From contig JAJDTP010000016.1 in NCBI GenBank assembly GCA_022827095.1, positions 62,001 to 126,000 on the forward strand: a stretch of 64,000 bases of DNA. The letters are read 5' to 3'. The notes beneath the pieces are model-generated. The model was given only the letters and a program-made list of their open reading frames with translations, was not told the origin of the DNA and did not search any database. The position numbers and the translations under genes are program-made. This DNA comes from Dehalococcoidia bacterium. GTDB lineage: Bacteria; Chloroflexota; Dehalococcoidia; Lucifugimonadales; UBA3495. Shown here piece after piece: positions 19,661 through 63,576 of this stretch; positions within the stretch are counted from its first letter, which is position 1; every line of letters starts with the position of its first letter.

Positions 19661-19764
19661 TGTCATTGCGAGCGCAGCGCGGCAATCTCGTTGGCGCAGG
19701 AGAGTCGGTTGGGGCAGACATTGCTGTTGCGGCGTCGAGATTGCCACGGCGCAAGCGCCTCGCA
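19661..19764. repeat. Dispersed repeat family R2, copy interrupted by the IS110 element
   Basis: Starts TGTCATTGCGAGCGCAGCGC and contains the inverted middle arm CGAGATTGCCACGGCGC. It matches the intact copy at 58450-58561 up to GCCTCGCA and then stops. The missing end, AATGACAAC, reappears at 20968 on the far side of the IS, so this copy was split by the insertion. Confidence 0.8.
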
Positions 19765-42512: not shown

Positions 42513-42544
42513 AACGAGATTGCCGCGCTGCGCTCGCAATGATA
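42513..42544. repeat. Repeat family R2, fragment
   Basis: A short fragment with AACGAGATTGCCGCG and GCGCTCGCAATGA, the right-hand arm of R2. It abuts the R1 copy that follows. Together they fill most of the 308-base gap between the binding-protein gene and the ABC exporter. Confidence 0.65.
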
Positions 42545-44725: not shown

Positions 44726-44810
44726 CGTCATTGCGAGCGAAGCGCGGTAATCTCGTCAGCGCAGCAGTCATCGCTACGGGAACGAGATTGCCGCTTCGCT
44801 ACGTTCCTTG
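44726..44810. repeat. Repeat family R2, copy
   Basis: Starts CGTCATTGCGAGCGAAGCGC and continues to GAGATTGCCGCTTCGCTACG, with an internal inverted arrangement. Non-coding, between the ABC exporter and an LLM gene. Confidence 0.75.
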
Positions 44811-50201: not shown

Positions 50202-50298
50202 CCGCTGTCATTGCCAGCGAAGCGCGGCAATCTCGTCGGCGTAGCAGTCATCCTTCACCAGATTGCCGCGTCGCTGCGCTCCTCGCAATGACAGCGGG
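50202..50298. repeat. Repeat family R2, copy
   Basis: Begins CCCGCTGTCATTGCCAGCG and ends CGCAATGACAGCGGG, so the ends form a 12-base inverted repeat. Contains GAAGCGCGGCAATCTCGT and an opposed arm. It separates the small-gene pair from the Rieske beta gene. Confidence 0.78.
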
Positions 50299-56616: not shown

Positions 56617-57247
56617 GGAGCCTCCGGTGTCTCGGGGCACACTGGTGAAAGTGGTTGAGCGGTCCATCAGGGGCGGTTGTCTTGTCGAGCGTTACCATCC
56701 TATATGCCTTGCATTTTATCAAGCGGCAACTCTCGGGTAATGACGGAATCAGGCAAAGATTTGGATGGTTGGACTAATTGCCACATTCGTTAATGCGCTG
56801 GTCGACCTCCGGCCAGGCTACCGTGAGTCGGAAGAGAGAAGTTCCTCACACGAGTAAGGTCGTGCAAAATTCCGCCAGGGGTTCGGGTTGTCATTGCGAG
56901 GCGCTCGCGCCGTGGCAATCTCGTGGGTTCGCAGTTGCTCGCTGCGGCCCGACACTACATCAACGAGATTTCCACTCTTAGCTCGCAATGACCAAATGGG
57001 AGACTGAATGACCCTGTAGCATAGCCCAGGGCCATTCGATTATTGCTCTGCGACCACCAGTATCCGTCATTCCGGCGAAAGCCGGAATCCAGGTATCCTT
57101 TGCGTCTGAAAATCCCGCCCATCCTGTACATCCATGCAAAGAAACCATTTGAAACGGAATGCTGCCAGCATAGCCACTTTGCCTTGTTAAGCGCGCTCCG
57201 CTGGGTTATCATCCCTGCGCCCGGCTTCGGCCCCGCTCCGGTCGCCC
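56617..57247. other. Gene-free stretch with repeats R2 and half of R1
   Basis: About 630 bases with no supported gene. It contains an R2-like copy at 56889-56992 (TTGTCATTGCGAGG, then GAGATTTCC and CTCGCAATGA), a half copy of R1 at 57064-57093 (CGTCATTCCGGCGAAAGCCGG), and a word AATCCCGCCCATCCTG that resembles part of family R3. Nothing else stands out. Confidence 0.65.
56889..56992. repeat. Repeat family R2, diverged copy
   Basis: Outer arms GTCATTGCGAG and CTCGCAATGAC are inverted. The middle differs more from the other R2 copies. Non-coding. Confidence 0.7.
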
Positions 57248-58449: not shown

Positions 58450-58561
58450 TGTCATTGCGAGCGAAGCGTGGCAATCTCGTTGGCGTAGGGGAGTCTTTCA
58501 GGGCTGGTGTTGCTATGGTGGCGTCGAGATTGCCACGGCGCAGGCGCCTCGCAATGACAAC
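58450..58561. repeat. Repeat family R2, intact reference copy
   Basis: Runs from TGTCATTGCGAGCGAAGCG to CTCGCAATGACAAC, with internal GGCAATCTCGTTGGCG opposed to CGTCGAGATTGCC. It is the closest match to the copy split by IS110 at 19661/20968. Confidence 0.8.
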
Positions 58562-59113: not shown

Positions 59114-59215
59114 CGTTAGCGCACCGTGCCCACCCGCGATAGCGCCTTCCTGTGCGCTGGTGTACAATCGGCTCAATTCTTGCCGTTTGTCCTGCTGCCG
59201 CGAGGGGGATTTTCG

Positions 59216-60517
59216 ATGCGTATCCTGCTGATTGCCACCAACCGCCACAACCGGGTTATGAGCCGGATGCGGGCGCAGCCCATCCCCATTGGCCTGGCCT
59301 ATGTCGCCGGCCACCTCGACCGTTCCCGGCACGAGGTGAAGCTGGTCGACCTGATGTTTGCCGATGAGAACTACCTGGATGAAGTCGAGCGCACCGTCCT
59401 GGACTTCAAGCCCGAGATGGTGGGCATCTCCATCCGCAACCTCAGCAACCACAGCTACATCGACCCACAGTGGCAGTTGCCCATCACCCGGAGTGTCATC
59501 GAGCGCATCCGAACGATTTCCGACGCCACCATCGTCTGCGGCGGCCCTGCTTTCAGCATCATGCCGCAGCAGGTCTTCGATTTCGTGCAGCCCGATATCG
59601 GCATCGCCGGCGACGCCGGCGAGACCTTCTCCGAGCTGGCCAACCGCGTCGAAATCGGCGAGCCCGATTACCGGGGCATGACCGGCGTTCTCTACCGGGA
59701 AAACGGCGAAATCGTCTACAACGGCATGCGCTGTTCGTCCGATTTCGGCAGCCGCCCCAGCCTCGACGACCTCGACATGCCCAAATACGCCAAGGCCGGT
59801 TTCGGCGTCAGCGTGCTCACCAAGCTGGGCGGGTTCTACTATCCCACTTCCGCTGACGACATGCGCACCCCCGAGGGCGCCTGGCGCGTGATCCGCCCCA
59901 TCGACGAGGTAGTCGAGGAGGTGGCCGAGGTCACCACCCGCTACGGCTTGAAGAAGATCTTCTTCGTCGATAACTGCTTCAACGTGCCCCTGGAACACGC
60001 CAAGGAACTCTGCAATGCCCTGATGGAATCCGAGGTCAAGGTGCGCTGGAACACCTGCCTCGCCCCCTACGCCTGCGACGCCGAGCTCATCGGCATGATG
60101 AAGCAGGCCGGCTGTGGCCTCGTCATGATGGGCGGCACCCGCGGCGGCGACCCCCACGAGGGCGACAACGATACGTCGCGCTACGCCTCCCTCAAGGAGA
60201 CCACCGAGCTGTGCGAGGCCGGCGACCTCCACTACACCATCAGCCAGCAGTTCGGCGAGCCCGGTGAAACTCGGGAGTCCGTCGAGAATAAGCTGGAGTT
60301 CCTGCGCGGGCTCAAGCCCTCGTTGGCCAACCTCCGCGTCGGCGTCAGCGTCATGCCCGGCACCGACGTCGCCGCCCGCTGCATTGAGGAAGGCATCATC
60401 AAGGACGAGACCGAGCTCATCGCCCCCACCTTCTACATGGCCGAAGAGGTCCGCCCCTGGCTGGTCGACTACCTCCGCGAGCTCGTCGACGTCAACCCCC
60501 GCTGGAACCTGATGTAG
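59216..60517 (+). CDS. B12-binding/radical-SAM-like protein without the CxxxCxxC motif
   Basis: A 433-residue protein with the architecture of cobalamin-binding radical SAM enzymes. Residues 1-150 are the B12-binding-like Rossmann domain (VKLVDLMFADENYLDEVE, VCGGPAFS, IAGDAGETFSELAN). The rest is a partial TIM barrel, with the later IFFVDNCFN and GEPGETRES blocks of radical SAM. At the expected cluster site (residues 200-214, LTKLGGFYYPTSADD) there is no cysteine; the family has CxxxCxxC there. ATG 59216 has GAGGGGG upstream. It may use another cofactor or be a binding protein. Confidence 0.85.
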   Translation: MRILLIATNRHNRVMSRMRAQPIPIGLAYVAGHLDRSRHEVKLVDLMFADENYLDEVERTVLDFKPEMVGISIRNLSNHSYIDPQWQLPITRSVIERIRTISDATIVCGGPAFSIMPQQVFDFVQPDIGIAGDAGETFSELANRVEIGEPDYRGMTGVLYRENGEIVYNGMRCSSDFGSRPSLDDLDMPKYAKAGFGVSVLTKLGGFYYPTSADDMRTPEGAWRVIRPIDEVVEEVAEVTTRYGLKKIFFVDNCFNVPLEHAKELCNALMESEVKVRWNTCLAPYACDAELIGMMKQAGCGLVMMGGTRGGDPHEGDNDTSRYASLKETTELCEAGDLHYTISQQFGEPGETRESVENKLEFLRGLKPSLANLRVGVSVMPGTDVAARCIEEGIIKDETELIAPTFYMAEEVRPWLVDYLRELVDVNPRWNLM

Positions 60518-60568: not shown

Positions 60569-60772
60569 ATGACTGCCGCTGAATGGAGTAAATCCCTTAT
60601 CGGAGCCGGGCTTCTCATAATTGTCACGGCTGCCATAATCTACTGGATTTGGCCGGACTGGATGGCCCAACGTGCGGTCGCCGGCCGGCTGGGGTCCTTG
60701 CTAATTATGGGCGGAGGCGGCGCACTGATGTCATTGATGGGCTTGTATTTGGCTACTACCCATGCGCGGTAA
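60569..60772 (+). CDS. Small two-span membrane protein
   Basis: A 67-residue protein from ATG 60569 with GGGGAG upstream. Two hydrophobic segments (LIGAGLLIIVTAAIIYWIW and LLIMGGGGALMSLMGLYLA). Overlaps the next small membrane gene by 11 bases. Unknown function. Confidence 0.6.
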   Translation: MTAAEWSKSLIGAGLLIIVTAAIIYWIWPDWMAQRAVAGRLGSLLIMGGGGALMSLMGLYLATTHAR

Positions 60773-61085
60773 CTGGGCTTGGCTGGCCCTTTGGGTGCTG
60801 ATCTCGAGCTACTTCATCGGCACATTCTCATTGTTGTTGTTGGCCTACGGTTATGCCGATGTCCTGGCTGGTATCTTGGCTCTAGCTATGGCCACATCAG
60901 GGATATGGTCCTCTGCAAAAGGTATGGCTCGCTTGAAACGTTCGGACAGCCTCTCTGACACTCAATTGGAAGCCGCCTACCGCTACCGCAACGCCGGCAT
61001 CGCTTTGGGCCTCATCGGCTCGGCCTGCTGGTGTTATCTTGGGAAACATTCCTGGGCCGCTTCATCAGTCCTTAACCGTCCGTAA
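60762..61085 (+). CDS. Small three-span membrane protein
   Basis: A 107-residue protein with hydrophobic segments at about 5-28, 32-50 and 78-95. The middle loop is charged (RLKRSDSLSDTQLEAAYRYR). Its end touches the DUF1800 gene region. Unknown function. Confidence 0.6.
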   Translation: MRGNWAWLALWVLISSYFIGTFSLLLLAYGYADVLAGILALAMATSGIWSSAKGMARLKRSDSLSDTQLEAAYRYRNAGIALGLIGSACWCYLGKHSWAASSVLNRP

Positions 61086-61102
61086 TGCAAAGGAATGCGA
61101 CG

Positions 61103-62554
61103 ATGACATTGACGCAACAACCGCAACTCGGTGCCGCCCGCATCGCCCTGGCCAACGCCGAGACCATCCGAGCCGCGCACCTCCTGCGCCGTGCCGGTTT
61201 CACCCCAACCCGCGCCGAAATCGATCGCGCCGTGGGGCGCGGATACGAGGCCACCGTCGACGAGCTGCTGCATCCCGAGGACCGGCCCGATCTGGAAATC
61301 GAGGACCTTATCCGCCGCTACCACGTCGACCAGAACAGCCTCATGCTACTGGAGAGTAGCCAGGGCTACTGGATGTATCGCATCATCAACAGCCAGCGCC
61401 CGCTGGAGGAGAAGATGGCCCTGTTCTGGCACGGCCTCTTCGCCACCGCCTACGGCAAGCTCAACCACGCCAAGGCGGTCGTCAACCAGACCCACACCTT
61501 CCGCCGCCACGGGCTGGGCAAGTTCGCCGACATCCTGGTCGAGCTGTCCCGCGACCCCGCCATGATCTTCTGGCTGGACAACAAGGACAACCACCGCGAC
61601 GCGCCCAACGAGAACTACGGCCGCGAACTTCTCGAGCTGTTCTCCATGGGCATCGGCAACTACACCGAGGCTGACGTCAAGGCCGCCGCCCGCGCCTTCA
61701 CCGGCTGGACCATCGACAACGCCGAGTACATGAGCATCCGCGCCAGCCGCGACTCCTTCTGGCCTTACGGCCGCATCGATTGGCAGTTCCGCTACCGCGA
61801 GGACGACCACGACGACACCGAGAAAACCTTCCTCGGACACACCGGTCCCCTCAGCGGACAGGACGTCATCGATATCATCGTGCAGCAGCCGGCCACCGCT
61901 CACTACATCGCCGGCAAGCTCTACAACTTCTTCGTGTCCGACCGTCCCGACGAGGAAGCCATCGGCATCATGGCCGACGAGTTCACCCGCACCGGGGGCG
62001 ATATCCGCGCCGTCATGCGCCGCATGTTCCTGTCGGATTTCTTCGCAGATGAGGCCGTCCGCCTGGGCCGCGTCAAGAGCCCCGCCGAGTTGGTGGGCGG
62101 CACGGCACGCCTGGCCGGCAGCCACCAATCTCCGGAGTGGACCATCTCCAACCTGGCCATGGACGTCAACTTCATGGGCCAGGAGATCCTGAACCCGCCC
62201 ACCGTGGAGGGCTGGCACACCGGCATGGAGTGGATCGACACCGGCAACCTGGTCGAGCGCATCAACGCCGCCGGCGCCGAGATGCGCGATACCGCCCGCC
62301 CCGGCGTCCGCGCCATCATCGACCGCGTCAAGACGCGAGGCGACCGGCTGGAGCCCCGTCAGCTTGCCGAAGCCTGCCTCGACGCCATGGGCATGTTCGA
62401 GGTGTCCGATGGCACCATGGACAGCTTGGTCGCGCTCGCCGCCCCGTGGGGCGAGATTCGCTTCGACCGCGCCGACAGCATCGGTTGCGCCGAGGAGCGG
62501 GTCGTGGAGATGCTGCAACTCATCGTGGCATCCCGGGAGTACCAACTGGCATGA
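61103..62554 (+). CDS. DUF1800 family protein
   Basis: A 483-residue DUF1800 protein. Signature segments: HLLRRAGFTPTRAEIDRAVGRGY, RPLEEKMALFWHGLFAT, and NENYGRELLELFSMGIGNYTEADVKAAARAFTGW. Family members are widespread in environmental bacteria and often pair with DUF1501 proteins; the function is unknown. ATG 61103 has AAGGA upstream. The stop overlaps the NHL gene start by 4 bases. Confidence 0.92.
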   Translation: MTLTQQPQLGAARIALANAETIRAAHLLRRAGFTPTRAEIDRAVGRGYEATVDELLHPEDRPDLEIEDLIRRYHVDQNSLMLLESSQGYWMYRIINSQRPLEEKMALFWHGLFATAYGKLNHAKAVVNQTHTFRRHGLGKFADILVELSRDPAMIFWLDNKDNHRDAPNENYGRELLELFSMGIGNYTEADVKAAARAFTGWTIDNAEYMSIRASRDSFWPYGRIDWQFRYREDDHDDTEKTFLGHTGPLSGQDVIDIIVQQPATAHYIAGKLYNFFVSDRPDEEAIGIMADEFTRTGGDIRAVMRRMFLSDFFADEAVRLGRVKSPAELVGGTARLAGSHQSPEWTISNLAMDVNFMGQEILNPPTVEGWHTGMEWIDTGNLVERINAAGAEMRDTARPGVRAIIDRVKTRGDRLEPRQLAEACLDAMGMFEVSDGTMDSLVALAAPWGEIRFDRADSIGCAEERVVEMLQLIVASREYQLA

Positions 62555-63576
62555 CCACCACCATGACCGCAACATTCACTTACAGCCACACCGTGGGCTT
62601 CCTCGCCTATCGCGGCCGAGGCTTCATCCACCCTGTTGACCTGACCTTGGGCGGCAACGGCGTGATGTACGTGCTCAACCGAGGCGGGGCAGAGTCGGTG
62701 ACCCGCCTGGACCTCAAACGGGTTTGCGTCTGCACAGCGGATGAGGGCTATATCGGCGAATGGGGAACCGGTGGCACCGAGGACGGCCAGTTCTGGTGGC
62801 CATCGGCCATTGTCCGGACTGGTGACGGCAGCCTCTACGTTGCCGACGAGGCCCTCCAGCGCATCATCGTGTTCAGTCCCGAAGGCGAGTTCATCCGCCA
62901 TTGGGGTGAAGTCGGCGACGCTCCAGGCCAGATCAATCGCCCCGCCGACATCGCCGTCGCTCCCGACGGTTCGCTGCTGATCAGCGACGGCATGAACCAC
63001 CGTATCCAGCGCTTCACCGTCGACGGCGAGTACCTGGGAGGTTGGGGCGGCTACGGCGCCCAGGCCGGCCAGTTCAACACGCCTTGGCGGTTGGCCTGCG
63101 ACGCCGACGGTAACGTCTTCGTCGCCGACTGGCGCAATGACCGCGTTCAGGCCTTCACCCCCGACGGCCGCTTCGTCGGCCAGTGGGGAGTGTCCGGAGA
63201 CGGAAAGGGACAGTTGAACCGCCCTTCCTCGGTGGCTGTCGACGACGAGGGCTACATCTACGTGAGCGACTGGGGCAACGAGCGGGTGCAGATCTTCGCC
63301 CCGGACGGCGAGGTGGCCGCCATCCTGCTGGGCGACGCGACAACCTCATCGTGGGCAGATGATTACTTGGCGGCCAATCCCGACGAACAGAGGGCTAGGC
63401 GCGAAGCGGATCTGGCCCCCGCAGTCAACCCGTGGCGCGATCATCGCCGCGAGACCTCCGCCGGAGTCGAAAAGTTTTTCTGGGGACCCAGCGCGATCAA
63501 CCTTGACGCCCAGGGCCGCATCTACGTCGTCGACTCCTGCCGCCACCGCGTCCAGATCTACCGCAAGAATTCGTAA
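62551..63576 (+). CDS. NHL-repeat beta-propeller protein
   Basis: A 341-residue protein with NHL repeats forming a six-bladed propeller: repeats read GQFWWPSAI, GQINRPADIAV, GQFNTPWRLAC, GQLNRPSSVAV, each followed by a VADE / ISDG / VADW / VSDW-type strand. The C-terminus (ARREADLAP and SCRHRVQIYRK) closes the propeller. It is coupled to DUF1800 by a 4-base overlap, so the two probably act together. No signal peptide seen. Confidence 0.9.
   Translation: MTTTMTATFTYSHTVGFLAYRGRGFIHPVDLTLGGNGVMYVLNRGGAESVTRLDLKRVCVCTADEGYIGEWGTGGTEDGQFWWPSAIVRTGDGSLYVADEALQRIIVFSPEGEFIRHWGEVGDAPGQINRPADIAVAPDGSLLISDGMNHRIQRFTVDGEYLGGWGGYGAQAGQFNTPWRLACDADGNVFVADWRNDRVQAFTPDGRFVGQWGVSGDGKGQLNRPSSVAVDDEGYIYVSDWGNERVQIFAPDGEVAAILLGDATTSSWADDYLAANPDEQRARREADLAPAVNPWRDHRRETSAGVEKFFWGPSAINLDAQGRIYVVDSCRHRVQIYRKNS

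Follow-up and report, generated by a model that had tools for sequence, protein, structure and literature searches.

A gene in the window (the whole 64,000-nucleotide stretch of DNA analysed here) encodes a real, conserved and apparently undescribed branch of the cobalamin-dependent radical-SAM (B12-rSAM) scaffold that lacks the cysteine motif of the iron-sulfur cluster, and whose function we infer below. The absence of the motif is not due to chance or error. The three-cysteine motif CxxxCxxC of the radical SAM superfamily was found at none of 75 distinct homologous places, which are spread over 63 genomes of the same order and have 39-100% identity to the window protein. These are all the places with E ≤ 1e-60 listed in the family and order searches. 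The features discussed are collected in Table 1.

Table 1. Features of the cluster-less gene and its surroundings, numbered from the first letter of the window
Feature	Position	Strand	Basis and remarks
Cluster-less B12-rSAM-like protein, 433 amino acids	59216..60517	+	Sequence, profile matches and predicted fold; genus dN/dS 0.06
Ribosome-binding site AGGGGG	59203..59208	+	7 bases 5' of ATG
N-terminal Rossmann cobalamin-binding domain	59216..59665	+	Residues ~1-150; PF02310 at residues 22-141 (2.3e-16)
Arg74, predicted counterpart of TsrM Arg69 beneath the cobalt	59435..59437	+	HMMER alignment to 6wte
Loop LGGFYYPTSAD in place of CxxxCxxC	59825..59857	+	Residues 204-214; alignments; pLDDT below 50 at residues 208-221
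Cys254, position of TsrM Glu273	59975..59977	+	In the 75 places: 52 Gly, 17 Cys, 3 Ala, 1 Ser, 1 Gln, 1 Glu
Degenerate loop following strand beta4	60131..60169	+	Residues 306-318; D-S conserved in motif-bearing relatives gone; low pLDDT, high in control
DUF1800 protein	61085..62554	+	Downstream, same strand; a constant neighbour in the genus but not in the family
NHL-repeat beta-propeller protein	62554..63576	+	Adjoins DUF1800; one-base overlap with the DUF1800 gene
Copies of repeat GTCATTGCGAGCGAAGCGTGGCAATCTCG	19662-19690, 42515-42543, 44727-44755, 50207-50235, 56964-56992, 58451-58479	both	

The window protein

Translation of the frame at 59216-60517 (+) bears out the first-pass annotation, which had described a full-length protein without frameshift and without a CxxxCxxC: the frame is open across 433 amino acids to its stop, and the motif is absent. 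The strong ribosome site that it reported is present as well, and a G-rich stretch 5' of the ATG also occurs in the genus relatives inspected. Likewise, the N-terminal B12-binding-like domain folds as a Rossmann domain in the predicted model and passes the Pfam cut-off for PF02310 (B12-binding; 60.1 against 32.1 bits), and the same profile is matched by 47/47 family members at E up to 0.1. The cut-off of PF04055 (Radical_SAM) is missed by the window protein (18.0 against 29.5 bits).

The best NCBIfam models are all B12-rSAM equivalogs or subfamilies (TIGR04072, BzaD, PhpK, tryptophan methyltransferase), each matched below its cut-off. TIGR04072, a B12-binding/radical SAM model for ladderane-type lipid biosynthesis, comes first (2.7e-57, residues 23-413) and is matched by 47/47 family members; the window protein falls short of its equivalog cut-off (194.3 against 360 bits) and lacks the cluster motif. 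TIGR04385 (BzaD, the radical SAM protein of B12 lower-ligand biosynthesis) follows at 1.3e-34 over residues 2-411, again below the cut-off (120 against 450 bits). BzaD carries the cluster motif. The equivalog cut-off of TIGR04428, the model for the tryptophan 2-C-methyltransferase TsrM, is missed more widely (73.7 against 500 bits).

No description of a cluster-less B12-rSAM family, in SAR202 or elsewhere, was found in open-licence PubMed Central text, nor any text there that brings SAR202 and radical SAM together. The terms B12, cobalamin and radical are absent from one SAR202 paper (PMC6946804), as are B12, cobalamin and radical SAM from another (PMC10444878).

Loss of the cluster motif across the order

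The loop LGGFYYPTSAD had been assigned to the cluster position, and it indeed aligns exactly with the CxxxCxxC of motif-bearing relatives, opposite (T)KRGCxxxCxxC in these and LTKNGCxxxCxxC in TsrM and TsrT. At none of the 75 places does the loop (residues 198-226), a stretch of 17-34 residues, hold a cysteine. A CxxC or CxxxC pair occurs somewhere in 41 of the 75 members and is thus not general. Some genomes have two or three paralogues, all of which are without the motif. The first-pass annotation had proposed checking orthologues, since an intact motif in close relatives would reduce the loss to a mutation in a single genome; with no motif-bearing sequence among the 75, a single-genome mutation is ruled out.

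The gene is present in 46 of 50 genomes of the family. In the sample of the order, 59 of 197 genomes gave a match at 1e-10, some of which are remote radical-SAM relatives only. The motif was found in 29/29 fetched loci of the phylum search and in 29/29 of the class-wide profile search; these 58 loci are part of the remote matches (29 per search), and one of those from the phylum search (L032) belongs to the same order as the window genome. When genome contigs were scanned with the single window protein, only close relatives were matched, at identities of at least 86%. The profile searches covered Chloroflexota, and cluster-less members may also exist beyond this phylum. No homologues were found in viral contigs. 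The plasmid search gave seven weak places, and the three of them that were fetched all bear the motif.

Predicted structure

A fold prediction with inspection of the loop had also been suggested, and a fold other than radical SAM would have spoken against the claim. The AlphaFold2 model of the window protein (47-row family alignment; pLDDT 85.8, pTM 0.86) is a complete B12-rSAM fold, including the partial TIM barrel of radical-SAM proteins, and its cluster loop is disordered. The best whole-length structural match is TsrM (PDB 6wte, 6wtf; Foldseek 1e-24, TMq 0.80; Z 30.6, 2.7 Å over 405 residues, 23% identity), which is also matched by the PDB profile search at 7.6e-38. The next solved relatives are AprD4 (Z 25.9), OxsB, CysS, MgmA and TokK, which share the two-domain architecture of the window protein (Z 19-26). 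All five are known as radical-SAM enzymes carrying a cluster, whereas the window protein has no cluster motif.

Values of pLDDT below 50 occur at residues 208-221 in the cluster loop and at residues 308-311 and 313-316 after strand beta4, the latter loop being, as we take it from the general fold, at the SAM site. In a motif-bearing control (L133, 30-row alignment) the equivalent blocks reach pLDDT 88-90 and 96. By this comparison, predicted order has been lost from both loops on the cluster and SAM side.

Retained and lost residues

The same two loops stand out in the alignments. Sites were counted as conserved when the same residue stood in 85% or more of the 34 motif-bearing relatives, and were then scored in 62 family rows. 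The family retains 16 of 22 such sites in the B12 domain and 28 of 49 in the remainder. On the cluster strand with its loop 1 of 10 is left, and in the beta4 loop none of 6. Erosion is therefore selective (1/16 sites retained in the two loops against 44/71 elsewhere; Fisher's exact test, P = 4e-5, both loop regions having been picked after the alignment was seen).

Around the putative cobalamin site, Arg74, Asn75 and the segment GG..F...P are conserved in both the cluster-less and the motif-bearing groups. Arg74 is Arg in 62/62 family rows and 34/34 motif-bearing rows, and in 73 of the 75 places (the other two are one gap and one X). Its counterpart Arg69 blocks the lower cobalt face in TsrM and has been proposed to stabilise cob(I)alamin, according to the relevant passages of PMC13331322 and PMC8992657; beneath the cobalt, the former source places a Trp in TokK and an Asn-held water in OxsB, not an Arg. 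A TsrT locus, recovered by tblastn, aligns at the Arg position as TsrM does. By sequence alignment, the likeness to TsrM appears to extend to an equivalent Arg at the lower face of the cobalt, as well as to a TK ahead of the cluster loop. Since residues 74-75 are Arg-Asn in all 34 aligned motif-bearing relatives, this pair is not specific to non-radical enzymes, and the class-level relatives that carry the Arg-Asn segment retain the cluster motif, unlike the window family.

TsrM has CX3CX2C and, on the cluster, Glu273, which the part of PMC8992657 dealing with the site gives as a ligand of the unique iron. The window family has none of the three cysteines, and mostly a Gly in place of the Glu (Glu in 1/75). 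This latter change is by itself not diagnostic, as Gly is also present there in two motif-bearing loci (L015, L016). The barrel half has two charged residues, Lys359 and Arg374, that do not vary within the family (75/75) and that are atypical of motif-bearing relatives.

Descent and selection

The tree and the alignments show one ancient, order-wide clade descended from class-1 cobalamin-dependent radical-SAM enzymes. In a tree that combines 28 of the 53 family rows with 37 motif-bearing ones, the cluster-less sequences lie on one side of a single branch (support 100/99; 200/200 bootstrap trees), in agreement with the descent from a radical SAM enzyme suggested in the first-pass annotation. 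A single fully supported clade is best explained by one old event, so all three cluster cysteines were, most simply, lost once. The conservation alignments and the tree leave out four rows of the family that contain masked residues (L071, L078, L101, L102); alignment A1 comprised 47 rows, and alignment A2 was made without L139 and L158.

The closest motif-bearing sister differs between two methods, being L133 by profile score and the long-branched L015/L016 by tree (99/93). The latter two come from other Chloroflexota classes and combine the motif and the Arg-Asn segment with a Gly where TsrM has Glu273; they are possible intermediates.

Selection was measured among seven sequences of the genus (21 pairs), with dN/dS of 0.060 for the whole protein, 0.062 for the B12 domain and 0.049 for the barrel. 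These ratios show the rest of the scaffold to be held under strong purifying selection, and agree with the earlier view that the protein is maintained. A pseudogene is ruled out by the whole-protein value.

Genomic context

The host genome measures 3.79 Mb, and its close relatives are metagenome assemblies of Chloroflexota, Dehalococcoidia and SAR202. In the genus the DUF1800 and NHL genes follow the cluster-less gene; they also neighbour L073 and L112, and several relatives have such a pair nearby. Families f96 and f118 have a DUF1800 gene as well, at a distance of several kb at most. A conserved operon was considered and rejected, as the neighbours in f96 and f118 are not orthologous to the DUF1800 of the window in the tree. 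These genomes carry multiple copies of DUF1800 (12 places in genome G000), which together with the non-orthologous neighbours leaves an association at the genus level only. Other than in the genus and at the L073/L112 pair, no orthologous fixed neighbour was found. Neighbours vary between lineages, and no conserved operon partner pointing to a substrate was found among them; unshared immediate neighbours include phosphofructokinase, thiolase-like, enolase superfamily, SMP-30, amidohydrolase, luciferase-like, Nudix and FHA genes. The ORF picker behind this survey was crude, and failed to call the central gene at two of the 54 loci (L006, L100).

Several other arrangements were observed. A short hydrophobic ORF (60762-61085) lies between the B12 protein and DUF1800, with similar ORFs in L002 and L008 (138 and 102 amino acids). 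In family f118 (L090-L092, L095) the cluster-less gene sits amid repeated genes (ORF cluster 26, 14 copies in four loci), which we take to be Uma2-like, and in L092 and L095 it lies 19 bp ahead of a Nudix-type gene. The window also holds a dispersed repeat, GTCATTGCGAGCGAAGCGTGGCAATCTCG, in six copies on both strands with at most three mismatches, where none is expected.

No Rfam family, cobalamin riboswitches included, reached its cut-off in the window. Across the host genome there are five cobalamin riboswitches, and the B12-binding domain is matched five times, four of them above the cut-off and the window protein among the five; thus cobalamin belongs to the metabolism of the host. COX1 was found in 12/12 genomes that encode the cluster-less protein and in 1/14 that encode motif-bearing relatives, a contrast confounded with phylogeny because the cluster-less side is one clade, and some of the motif-bearing genomes are incomplete assemblies. 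Oxygen damages radical-SAM clusters, as stated in the pertinent section of PMC9576991, and an aerobic shift could have favoured the cluster-free form. The host nevertheless retains twelve other radical-SAM places above the Pfam cut-off, so cluster loss is not generally forced by oxygen.

Possible function

A family-wide and well-conserved loss of the iron-sulfur site suggests that B12 is probably used without radicals. Our preferred reading, to which we give an even chance, is a protein descended from B12-rSAM enzymes that would bind cobalamin, have no cluster and probably employ polar cob(I)alamin or methyl-cobalamin chemistry, both the binding and the activity being drawn from conserved residues and fold. 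Base-off cobalamin would be held in the N-terminal Rossmann domain, as suggested by Arg74, Asn75 and GG..F...P. By analogy with TsrM Arg69, Arg74 would lie beneath the cobalt and favour four-coordinate cob(I)alamin or a labile methyl-cobalamin. The protein would make no 5'-deoxyadenosyl radical, which is impossible when the cluster and the SAM anchor are absent, and with the beta4 loop eroded SAM may not bind. Most likely, a methyl group would be moved between the corrinoid and a small molecule in the retained barrel, where Lys359 and Arg374 are newly invariant. Reduction and remethylation of the corrinoid would be supplied from outside, and the oxygen-stable cofactor set would suit an aerobic host. 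From Lys359 and Arg374 one may guess that a small anionic molecule would receive a methyl group or be demethylated.

The main rival is a non-catalytic corrinoid carrier, store or sensor, with the barrel serving as a lid or a partner-binding surface. It accounts for a cobalamin domain retained while the two loops of the cluster and SAM site were erased, and the lack of a fixed operon partner fits a stand-alone carrier. A passive lid would however be expected to drift, whereas the barrel is under a constraint that matches that on the B12 domain (dN/dS 0.049 against 0.062) and has acquired invariant charges in all 75 places, and we consider this explanation unlikely. The first-pass annotation had thought of a non-redox cobalamin or ligand-binding protein; given the invariant Arg, an active chemical role for cob(I)alamin or methyl-cobalamin is at least as likely as passive binding. 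More doubtful still is that cobalamin binding has been lost too, leaving a plain ligand-binding protein or a non-cobalamin enzyme on the old scaffold. AprD4, which has the fold without cobalamin, offers a precedent, being the second-best structural family and a profile match; the PF02310 match throughout the 47 members and the Arg74, Asn75 and GG..F...P residues kept in both groups argue against such a loss.

Very improbable is a radical-SAM enzyme that still assembles its cluster on other cysteines, for instance Cys266, Cys300 and Cys333, although their conservation is high (75/75, 71/75 and 73/75 places, respectively). The first two, Cys266 and Cys300, show the same degree of conservation in motif-bearing relatives, and are thus scaffold residues; the three lie in separate secondary-structure elements, and the SAM-site loops are disordered in the model. 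That close relatives are metagenome assemblies might raise the concern of an assembly or sequencing artefact, or of a decaying pseudogene. The chance of either is negligible, since the orthologues refute it: the motif is missing in 75/75 places from many assemblies, some of them single-contig, and dN/dS is 0.06.

Returning to the cluster-free, cobalamin-binding reading, its more specific form is that these proteins are cobalamin methyltransferases or demethylases standing at the end of a TsrM-like polar route, in an aerobic lineage, with an Arg-supported cobalamin site and a re-tooled barrel pocket. We offer it tentatively, as somewhat less probable than its opposite.

Significance

What the [4Fe-4S] cluster does in TsrM is 'still unknown' in the words of the section of a review that treats it (PMC8992657). 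A widespread, conserved natural clade with a TsrM-type cobalamin site and no cluster would allow a direct test of which parts of the chemistry depend on the cluster. If the protein is cluster-free and oxygen-stable, its purification may be far easier than that of its relatives. For the family itself, the finding would mean that a radical scaffold has shed its radical chemistry throughout, not in one genome, and has done so in an aerobic lineage whose motif-bearing relatives are mostly without COX1.
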